Assembly (NCBI GenBank): GCA_031291725.1
Contig: JARLIM010000035.1
Span: forward strand, 62,001-126,000
DNA length: 64,000 bases
Direction of reading: 5' to 3'
DNA from: Acetobacteraceae bacterium
GTDB taxonomy: Bacteria > Pseudomonadota > Alphaproteobacteria > Acetobacterales > Acetobacteraceae
Within the stretch, counting starts at the first letter, position 1. Each line of letters starts with the position of its first letter. This document shows, piece after piece, positions 2,752 through 59,750 of this stretch. Below the pieces are notes generated by a model. The model was given only the letters and a program-made list of their open reading frames with translations, was not told the DNA's origin and did no database searches. The translations under genes were made by a program, and so were the position numbers.

Positions 2752-3744
2752 CTACCCCACAATGCCCCAGAATTTGGCAATCTCATGCGCCGCTGAAATG
2801 CCGGTATCCAGCGCCGTCGGGTAGACATGCCCCGCCATGTCGAGTTCCCACAGCTCAACCTGCGGCGCCGCAGTCCCGCCCCACAGCGTGTGATGCATCC
2901 CCGCCCCCACCGGCTTGGTGACGGATTGGCCGAGCCCATGCAGGGCGGCGAATTGTGTCGCCACGTCCCGCCCGTTCGAGGAAGCAACCACCGGGTCGAT
3001 CAAACCGTGCCAAATCGAGACGCGCGGATAGGTGCCCAGATACAGCGGCGGCCCCAGACGGCGGGCGAGGCCGGCCCATTCCATCGGGTCATGCGCCGAT
3101 CCCCGCCCAGCCATGCGCGACATCGCGGTGACGACATTCCCAGCAGCCCCCGCCGGCAGCCCAGCCACCACCGCCCCGCCCGCGAACACATCAGGATAGG
3201 CTGCCAACAACGCCGCCGTCATCGCACCGCCGGCGGACAGACCGGTGACAAAGACGCGCTTCGGATCGCCACGGGTCTGATGCAGAACGGCGCCAACCAT
3301 CTCGACGACGGATTGCACCTCACCATGACCGCGCTTGATGTCGCCTGGGCGAAACCAATTGAAACAGGTCTGCGGGTTGTTCGCCTCCGTCTGCCCCGGC
3401 ATCAGCAGCGCGAAATTATGCCGCGCAGCGAGGTAGCGCCAGCCGGATTGCGTTGCAAAATCCTCGGCTTGCTGGCCACATCCATGCAGAAGCACCACCA
3501 GCGGCGCACCGGCTGGCAGATGGTGCGGCAGGTAGGTGTGCAGTTCCAAGCCGCCAGGATTGATCAGCCCCTGTAAACTGCTCCGCGCGATCTCGGATGG
3601 CGTTTCAACGACCGGCGATGGCATCGCATGCGGCATTGGCTCGACCATCAACCGCGACACCTCCTGCAATAATCGCTGAGTCTGCCGCCGGAACCATGTC
3701 TGCCCGTCCACCATCAATAACAGCCTTTTGCAGTGCAGCATCAC
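2752..3744 (-). CDS. PHB depolymerase-family esterase (extracellular-type, LpqC-like)
   Basis: PLVVLLHGCGQ, FVTGLSAGGAMT lipase box, C-terminal H region. Confidence 0.85.
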   Translation of the reverse strand: MMLHCKRLLLMVDGQTWFRRQTQRLLQEVSRLMVEPMPHAMPSPVVETPSEIARSSLQGLINPGGLELHTYLPHHLPAGAPLVVLLHGCGQQAEDFATQSGWRYLAARHNFALLMPGQTEANNPQTCFNWFRPGDIKRGHGEVQSVVEMVGAVLHQTRGDPKRVFVTGLSAGGAMTAALLAAYPDVFAGGAVVAGLPAGAAGNVVTAMSRMAGRGSAHDPMEWAGLARRLGPPLYLGTYPRVSIWHGLIDPVVASSNGRDVATQFAALHGLGQSVTKPVGAGMHHTLWGGTAAPQVELWELDMAGHVYPTALDTGISAAHEIAKFWGIVG

Positions 3745-9603: not shown

Positions 9604-10085
9604 CCCTTCGCCGCTCGCTGCTCGCCTTCGCCGTGCTCGCCTTCGTGCTCCCGGCCCGTGCCGATGAAGCCAACCCCACCGAGGCCCAGCCCAAACTGCC
9701 CACCGAGAAACTGACCATCACCACACGTGATGGCCGCGTGCATGAATTCGACGTCGAGATGGCGACGACTCGCGATCAGCAGACTATCGGCTTGATGTTC
9801 CGCAAAAGCGTCCCCGAAGGCACCGGCATGCTGTTCGACTGGGGTGGCCTGCGCACCAGCGATATGTGGATGCGCAACACCCTCGCCTCGCTGGACATGC
9901 TGTTCATCGATCCGGACGGAAAAGTGCATCATATCGCGGAAAATGCGGTGCCGCAGAGCCTGGCGGTGATCTCCAGCGGCGGCGAGGTGCGCGGCACGTT
10001 GGAGTTGGGCGCGGGTACGGTGGAGAAGCTCGATATCCATGTGGGTGACGTCGTGCGTCAGCGCATTTTCGGCAATGCACCATAA
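9600..10085 (+). CDS. DUF192 domain-containing secreted protein
   Basis: Signal peptide; TRDQQTIGLMFRKSVPEGTGMLFDW...MWMRNTLASLDMLFID. Confidence 0.88.
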   Translation: MTLRRSLLAFAVLAFVLPARADEANPTEAQPKLPTEKLTITTRDGRVHEFDVEMATTRDQQTIGLMFRKSVPEGTGMLFDWGGLRTSDMWMRNTLASLDMLFIDPDGKVHHIAENAVPQSLAVISSGGEVRGTLELGAGTVEKLDIHVGDVVRQRIFGNAP

Positions 10086-57314: not shown

Positions 57315-58217
57315 ATGGCTGGGCGGCCTCAGCGCGTGAACGAAAGGCTTGCGGAATTTGCGCTGGCTGAACTCACGCCCCCCGTGGAGTTGCTCGCCCC
57401 CACAGCCCCACGCGTGCCAGTGCTGTTCACCTCCGCCCATTCTGGACAGATCTACCCATCTGATTTCATTTCAGCTTCCCGGCTCGATCCGGCGGGATTA
57501 CGGCGCAGTGAGGATAGTTTTGTCGATGAATTATTCGATATTGCTCCCCGACTCGGGGCCCCCTTATTGCGCGCCCGCTTCCCTCGCGCGTTCTGCGACC
57601 CCAATCGGGAGAAATGGGAACTCGACCCCGCAATGTTCAGCGAATCGCTGCCGCATTGGGTGAACACCAAAAGTCCGCGCGTGGCGGTGGGCCTGGGCAC
57701 GGTGGCGCGGGTGGTGGCGTCGGGCGACACGATCTACCGCACGAAACTGCGTTTCCCCGAGGTGCAAAGCCGCATCGAGCATTGTTGGCAAAGCTTTCAC
57801 GACGCACTCGCCGCCGAACTCGCCACGATTCGGGCGCGATTCGGCATCGCTGTGCTGATCGATTGCCATTCGATGCCCCGCTCCAGCCAATCCCGCGCCG
57901 ACCGCGCCGATATCGTCATCGGTGATGCGCATGGCACCGCCTGTGCGGCCGAATGGGTGCGTACGGCCGAGGAGCGGCTGCAAAGCCTGGGCTTCCGCAC
58001 CCGGCGCAACGATCCCTATGCCGGCGGCTATATCACCCGCCATTACGGCCGCCCACCCGAGGGCGTGCATGCGATCCAGCTGGAAATCTGCCGCTCGCTC
58101 TACATGAACGAGACGAATTTCACCCGGGCGTCGAATTTCGAGGATGTCCGCAACAGACTCAGCCATTTCGCCACTGATATCGTGCGACATGCCTCCGCGA
58201 TGGCAGGCCAGGCTTAG
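57315..58217 (+). CDS. N-formylglutamate amidohydrolase family protein
   Basis: VPVLFTSAHSGQIYPSDF, LIDCHSMP, GGYITRHYGRPPEGVHAIQLEI. Confidence 0.92.
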   Translation: MAGRPQRVNERLAEFALAELTPPVELLAPTAPRVPVLFTSAHSGQIYPSDFISASRLDPAGLRRSEDSFVDELFDIAPRLGAPLLRARFPRAFCDPNREKWELDPAMFSESLPHWVNTKSPRVAVGLGTVARVVASGDTIYRTKLRFPEVQSRIEHCWQSFHDALAAELATIRARFGIAVLIDCHSMPRSSQSRADRADIVIGDAHGTACAAEWVRTAEERLQSLGFRTRRNDPYAGGYITRHYGRPPEGVHAIQLEICRSLYMNETNFTRASNFEDVRNRLSHFATDIVRHASAMAGQA

Positions 58218-58227
58218 AATTCTGGGC

Positions 58228-58259
58228 AAAAAAAGTGGCGGTGCCCGAGAGCACCGCCA
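58228..58259 (-). terminator. Rho-independent terminator on minus strand
   Basis: TGGCGGTGC-TCTCGG-GCACCGCCA followed by CTTTTTTT on minus strand. Confidence 0.9.
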
Positions 58260-58313
58260 AGTTTAGGGAGGAAACGTCCAAGAAAGCAGCAGTGGCAAAG
58301 CCATCATGCTGCG
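58228..58313 (-). ncRNA. mmgR: small RNA, mmgR/suhB (alpha-r8)-like candidate
   Basis: Minus-strand promoter TTGCAT-N17-TATCTT (58343-58348/58320-58325), TTTCCTCCCT motif, intrinsic terminator; no CDS explains it. Confidence 0.7.
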
Positions 58314-58434
58314 ATGCACAAGATATGTTTCGCCGCTTCGAAATGCAAGAACTTTTTTGCAATGCAGCATAATCGATTTTTGACAGCCCCGCGCAGGGTG
58401 CGTTAACGAATTTTAAAGGTTTTAACGGCAGAGT

Positions 58435-59274
58435 ATGCAAATGCCCTGCTCCGCCCCTCGCTTTCGAACATTGATTTTTCCCCTGGCTTGGGCGCTGTTG
58501 GCCGTTGTTTTTGGACTGATTTTCCCTGCCTGGGCCGATGTAAATTCACCACCAAACCCGAGCAACACCGCCGCGCTCGCCACCCGTGATATCGCAATCC
58601 AGTGCGACATCGCGGCCAACATGGCTGGCCAGATGGCGGGCATTCCCAATCGGGTGATGCAGGCCATAGCCTTGGTGGAAAGTGGCCGTCGCGCCGCAGA
58701 TGGCCGTCTGCATCCCTGGCCGTGGAGCATCAATGTGGAAGGCACGGACCATATATTCGAAAGCCGCGCATCTGCCATTGCCGCCGTGCAGGCATTTCAA
58801 GCGGCGGGATCGCGCTCGATCGATGTCGGTTGCCTGCAGGTGAACCTGCTGCATCACCCGCACGCCTTTGCCTCACTGGAACAGGCATTCGACCCGATGA
58901 CCAATGCGCGCTACGCCGCCCTGTTCCTGCGCGATTTATATGGGCAAACCGGCTCCTGGTCGAAGGCCATCGCCGCCTATCATTCAGCCACTCCCGCCTT
59001 GGGCGATGCCTATCGGCAGAAGGTGATGGCAATGCTCAACGCCAATGGGGGGGCTGGGGAGATTGCCAATGAACCGCTCATCGCCGGGGGGGCAGGAGCC
59101 AGCGGGGTGGGCGGGGCATTGGCGATGCGAATGCCGGGCTGGATGGCCGCCCATGCTCTGGGAACGCGATCAGGCTCGGCGAACGCGCCCATCACCGCCA
59201 CCGGGCGCGGGCTCGATTCCTATCGGCTTCGTGCCATCGCGGGCTGGAGCCGGCTGCCGATGAAGCCGGGGTGA
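58435..59274 (+). CDS. lytic transglycosylase-like (SLT-domain) secreted protein
   Basis: Signal peptide; AQMAGIPNRVMQAIALVESGR...SIDVGCLQVNLLHHPHAFASLEQAFDPMTNARYAALFLRDLY. Confidence 0.85.
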   Translation: MQMPCSAPRFRTLIFPLAWALLAVVFGLIFPAWADVNSPPNPSNTAALATRDIAIQCDIAANMAGQMAGIPNRVMQAIALVESGRRAADGRLHPWPWSINVEGTDHIFESRASAIAAVQAFQAAGSRSIDVGCLQVNLLHHPHAFASLEQAFDPMTNARYAALFLRDLYGQTGSWSKAIAAYHSATPALGDAYRQKVMAMLNANGGAGEIANEPLIAGGAGASGVGGALAMRMPGWMAAHALGTRSGSANAPITATGRGLDSYRLRAIAGWSRLPMKPG

Positions 59275-59339: not shown

Positions 59340-59750
59340 GGTCTGCCAGACGGTTGGACGACCGCTGTCGGATGCAAATCCGGTGGAGGAAAGTCCGGGC
59401 TCCACGGAGATACGGTGCCGGTTAACGACCGGCGGGGGCGACCCCAGGGACAGTGCCACAGAAAACAAACCGCCAGGACCGGATCTCCTTCGGGAAAGCC
59501 GCTTCAGGCAAGGGTGAAACGGTGCGGTAAGAGCGCACCGCGCTTCTGGTAACAGCGGCGGCAGGGCAAACCCCACCGGGAGCAAGACCGAATAGGAGCG
59601 GCCGGCGGCTGCGAAAGCAGTGACGCAGGGGCATTTCCGCCCTGTCGCTCGGGTTGGTCGCGCGAGGCGTGCAGCAATGTATGCCCCAGAGGAATGGTCG
59701 TCTCGTGCCTCGGCACGAACAGAACCCGGCTTACAGACCGTCTGGCAATT
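59340..59750 (+). ncRNA. rnpB: RNase P RNA component (bacterial type A)
   Basis: P1 TGCCAGACGG/CCGTCTGGCA, GGAGGAAAGTCCGGGCTCCACGGAGA, ACAGAAAACA, CAGGCAAGGGTGAAACGGTGCGGTAAGAGCGCACCG, CAGAACCCGGCTTACAGACC. Confidence 0.96.

Follow-up and report, generated by a model that had tools for sequence, protein, structure and literature searches.

An alpha-r8 (mmgR/suhB) small RNA gene with two predicted PhaR operators at its promoter in an Acetobacteraceae genome

The sRNA gene and its setting

In the 64-kb stretch of DNA analysed here (the window), the minus strand carries an alpha-r8/mmgR-family sRNA gene at 58228-58312, between a gene of the N-formylglutamate amidohydrolase family (FGase; 57315-58217, PF05013, E = 2.6e-73) and a gene for an SLT-domain lytic transglycosylase (58435-59274, PF01464). 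Both neighbours are those named in a preliminary description of this DNA and, because both lie on the plus strand, neither uses the sRNA terminator, as had also been stated there. According to PMC12559287, the alpha-r8 gene adjoins an FGase gene in most species, and the window copy, with its FGase neighbour, therefore sits at the common locus of the family. Just past the transglycosylase gene lies a class A RNase P RNA (59346-59749, 313 bits).

The promoter consists of a -35 box, TTGCAT (58348-58343), with CTTGC kept in most relatives, and, after a 17-nt spacer, a -10 box, TATCTT (58325-58320), which can likewise be followed in relatives; this is the minus-strand unit that had been proposed from inspection of the sequence. 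The 5' end, placed from the -10 box, is likely to lie near 58312, giving a predicted transcript of about 85 nt, in good agreement with the earlier estimate of about 86 nt. The segment 58315-58228 folds with -35.2 kcal/mol (z = -4.8), and none of 200 shuffles was equally good. The family's short 5' helix and Rho-independent terminator are both present, the terminator covarying and the 5' helix coming from single folds only. The 5' hairpin occupies 58286-58312; similar hairpins of variable sequence can be read in relatives, and its covariation was not recovered by RNAalifold on a MAFFT alignment of 37 sequences. Its left arm, GCAGCA, doubles as part of the PhaR-like site O2 described below. The alpha-r8 core 10-mer TTTCCTCCCT (58265-58274, minus strand), an anti-Shine-Dalgarno-like seed, is invariant in 37 relatives and equals the core given in PMC12559287; the exact family 10-mer, UUUCCUCCCU, is thus found at 58274-58265, where it lies single-stranded. 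The terminator (58228-58259, minus strand), located by a scan and with covarying pairs in the 37 sequences, is a hairpin with a 4-nt loop (58259-58236) followed by T7 (58234-58228), as first described except that the stem has 10 pairs and not 9.

The RF00519 (suhB/mmgR) covariance model, the family already named in the preliminary description, aligns in full to 58294-58221 on the minus strand with 54.5 bits, for a gathering score of 41 and an E-value of 1.9e-8 for the whole window. The Rfam alternatives rpsL_pseudo, sbrA and RybB all scored far under their gathering scores. The promoter and terminator motifs are insufficient alone, because generic scans for both at the locus did no better than shuffles, the terminator scan being at chance level; a simple promoter scan reported no sigma-70 site at the sRNA promoter. 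What takes the sRNA beyond chance is the covariance match, together with the fact that 37 aligned relatives keep the promoter, the 10-mer and the terminator. The idea that this is not an sRNA gene, only a chance promoter with a terminator-like repeat, can draw on those generic scans, but it is in effect refuted by the covariance match, the invariant core, the covarying terminator and the conserved promoter and locus, and we give it practically no credence. By these sequence criteria the locus encodes a genuine small regulatory RNA, an additional member of the known alpha-r8 (mmgR/suhB) family.

Family members were found in 41 of 60 relatives. Across the 37 that were aligned, TCTTGGACGTTTCCTCCCTRAACT is invariant save for one base and is flanked by the variable 5' hairpin and by a terminator with compensatory changes. 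The copies form two groups, type 1 at the FGase locus (FGase beside 23 of 38 copies in Acetobacteraceae) and type 2 at the proS/RNase J locus (proS neighbouring 23, and RNase J 22, of 26 copies). The source genome has two RF00519 copies, the window copy with 54.5 bits and another with 44.5 bits (G000 C10:51543-51633, L002), which is at the proS/RNase J locus and has counterparts in 25 relatives. It has the same core and terminator plan as the window copy but differs in that its 5' part ends CTGCCGTGTGACTGGCG, in lacking PhaR operators and in having a different conserved promoter. The proS/RNase J-locus copies carry their own conserved promoter-like block (GTGGACG ... CAATCTTCACG), which in the source genome's copy is without PhaR sites. 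Five weak RF00519 matches (L105, L108, L111, L112 and L114), below every Rfam gathering score, have GTCTCCCAGACRTGAAGCCTCCCTG in common ahead of a terminator and represent a recurrent element.

Predicted PhaR operators at the promoter

Two predicted PhaR/AniA operators bracket the promoter. O1 (58352-58372, core TGCATTGCA) lies just upstream of the -35 box and, with a score of 27.1, is the best match in the window to a PWM made from 17 efficient EMSA-proven S. meliloti PhaR/AniA sites (PMC12542648), with mmgR held out and a maximum of 31.1; O2 (58304-58324, core TGCATCGCA) lies over -10/+1 and, at 19.6, is third best, while the reversed PWM reaches a maximum of 9.6 over the same 64 kb. The S. 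meliloti sites with EMSA results include the mmgR operator, CAATTGTGCACCGCAGCATTA (PMC12542648, Table 3); the window sequence over -10/+1 is ATCTTGTGCATCGCAGCATGA, and O2 and that proven operator have TTGTGCAYCGCAGCAT in common. The PWM was used because the strict published consensus, WNWD2NYGCRNYGCRNH2WNW, misses O1 and O2 by one flanking W each; taken as a pattern, the strict consensus occurs at 34 places in the source genome, against 13 for the control.

At a threshold of at least 13, for which the background is 31 sites in 174,159 positions, a site is present at 36 of the 38 type-1 promoters in Acetobacteraceae, two copies being without any. O1 was found in 32 of these promoters, O2 in 24 and both in 20, and in the two-site promoters the distance between O1 and O2 is 46-49 bp (exactly 48 in 14 of the 20). 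Among type-2 copies, only 3 of 26 have a PhaR-type site. That O1 belongs to the divergent lytic transglycosylase gene (58435, plus strand) rather than to the sRNA seems very unlikely. O1 does lie 63 bp ahead of the start of that gene, but its spacing to the sRNA promoter is fixed, even in copies without a nearby SLT gene, and an SLT gene stands beside only 21 of the 38 type-1 copies whereas 32 of them have O1.

Public genomes were also scanned for O2 together with the core, which returned at least 117 places; since the query itself contains O2, only O1 counts as evidence there. Among the matches listed, O1 is present at 32 of 41 Acetobacteraceae-named loci, at none of 13 Azospirillum-type loci and at none of 28 from Hyphomicrobiales, and the two-site bracketed promoter is therefore largely an Acetobacteraceae variant; a single predicted PhaR-type site at the sRNA promoter is widespread. 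A literature search, with the primary MmgR papers outside its scope, found no description of a conserved two-operator promoter. The family being already known, the new element is the control region, a conserved promoter whose two predicted operators would make an unusually clear switch.

phaR, PHB genes and other predicted PhaR sites

The source genome contains phaR (G000 C19; PF07879 and PF05233, TIGR01848 152.2 bits), phaC and hfq, and it has two phasins. One of the phasin promoters is bracketed by PhaR-type sites (27.8 and 22.9), as is the sRNA promoter; the PWM gave none for the second phasin. Further PhaR-type sites lie by bdhA (23.7), at zwf and, weakly, at phaR itself (13.1). Within the window, the PHB depolymerase-like esterase that had been noted earlier is borne out (2752-3744, minus strand; NF050058, 274.8 bits), and with a predicted PhaR site at its 5' end (3723-3743, PWM 17.4) it is likely to be a PhaR regulon mate of the sRNA. 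This site overlaps the first codons of the listed esterase ORF, which suggests that the true start is further in. The second-best PhaR-type site of the window (10065-10085, 22.5) falls where a DUF192 gene ends and lies upstream of both a tRNA (10140) and an NDUS4-like gene.

Upstream of hfq there is also a strong PhaR-type site (23.0), 94 bp before the start of the Hfq domain (G000 C21:186263-186283; L122 1764-1784). It was found in all six same-genus genomes tested (G000-G005, scores 12.9-24.0) and in G012, G013 and G017, and was not found in most other genomes examined. A link from PHB to Hfq through this predicted site is possible.

Presence of the sRNA follows that of phaR: both occur in 39 of the 60 relatives, the sRNA only in 2, phaR only in 3 and neither in 16, and in a class-wide sample of 241 genomes the corresponding numbers are 107, 7, 44 and 83, a co-occurrence that is confounded by shared ancestry and genome size. 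At class-wide sRNA promoters a PhaR-type site is present in 20 of 32 phaR+ genomes versus 1 of 7 phaR- genomes (Fisher p = 0.035), the phaR- sample being small (n = 7) and the absence of phaR perhaps reflecting an assembly gap; the downstream control gave 1 of 39. G016, the only family member that has the sRNA but in which phaR was not found, shows no PhaR-type site at the sRNA promoter.

Proposed role of the sRNA

Characterised alpha-r8 sRNAs are few, namely MmgR and the SisA group, and the general role of the family in carbon metabolism is stated as open in PMC12559287. In S. meliloti, mmgR is a repression target of PhaR, which binds it and is itself titrated by PHB; MmgR in turn holds PHB down (PMC12542648, PMC8401924). 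Without MmgR, the levels of phasins and PHB rise there by about 20%. Like MmgR, the window sRNA belongs to RF00519 and has the 10-mer, the terminator and a PhaR operator with TTGTGCAYCGCAGCAT at its promoter, but it differs in how that promoter is laid out: for mmgR, which is known to be under NtrC control, a single PhaR operator is listed, at a distance of 13 nt from the start and reportedly between the -35 and -10 boxes, whereas here two predicted operators bracket the promoter, the second over -10/+1. PMC12559287 describes SisA and SisB-D of Caulobacter crescentus, which resemble the window sRNA in family, in the same 10-mer and in being several copies per genome, with sisA also beside an FGase gene. 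With Hfq, the SisA 10-mer represses an mRNA by pairing directly with it immediately ahead of the start codon; SisA is countered by the sponge CrfA, and its known targets include a TonB-dependent receptor. No common conserved upstream motif is reported for sisA-D, and no link of SisA to PHB was found in the sections of the paper covered here.

It seems probable that the window sRNA belongs to the PHB regulon as an antisense sRNA of the Hfq type under repression by PhaR, acting in trans as a brake on carbon-storage and uptake mRNAs. The PhaR input is well supported by sequence, with binding and repression predicted from it. Without PHB, PhaR bound at both O1 and O2 would flank the promoter and hold the sRNA off; as PHB granules form they would titrate PhaR and the sRNA would come on, induced alongside the genes for phasin, hydroxybutyrate dehydrogenase and PHB-depolymerase-type enzymes. 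UUUCCUCCCU, being exposed, would then base-pair with ribosome-binding sites, with Hfq as the probable platform, and this pairing would lower translation of carbon-storage and uptake mRNAs, so that the sRNA would act as a brake within its own regulon. The expression and targets of the sRNA, the binding of PhaR and of Hfq, and the effect on PHB are all steps that we infer.

The target prediction that the preliminary description had called for did not single out the phasins: by duplex energy with the seed, their ribosome-binding sites rank an unremarkable 40 and 12 of 56, and the seed averages -12.2 kcal/mol where shuffled seeds average -12.3 kcal/mol. Duplex energy thus gives no support to direct repression of the phasins at their Shine-Dalgarno regions and, because the pairing is unremarkable, a PHB output is unsupported in the source genome. 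The earlier suggestion of a role in PHA control, made as speculation from neighbouring genes, is independently backed by the two predicted PhaR operators at the promoter, by their conservation and by the co-occurrence with phaR.

It is quite conceivable that this alpha-r8 sRNA serves general control of carbon and nutrient uptake in the manner of Caulobacter SisA, with PhaR merely the trigger and PHB genes not among the targets. The phasin result fits such a role, as does the case of SisA, which uses the same 10-mer to repress the mRNA of a TonB-dependent receptor as well as others (PMC12559287). However, the PhaR operators and the co-occurrence with phaR tie the timing of the sRNA to PHB, and the S. 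meliloti mutant over-accumulates both PHB and phasins; both points speak against this reading.

It is also quite conceivable that the alpha-r8 sRNA at the Acetobacteraceae FGase locus has become a dedicated output of PHB sensing, its two predicted PhaR operators bracketing the promoter in a mirror of the phasin promoter. In the window's genus, the predicted hfq operator might then let PHB status govern the sRNA and its chaperone alike, while the proS/RNase J copy, freed from PhaR, might answer another signal. As predicted PhaR operators are conserved in many Alphaproteobacteria, rare without phaR and near absent from the paralogue, they offer a direct and testable link between PHB sensing and the alpha-r8 family, and the split of operators between the copies tells which sRNA copy to delete.
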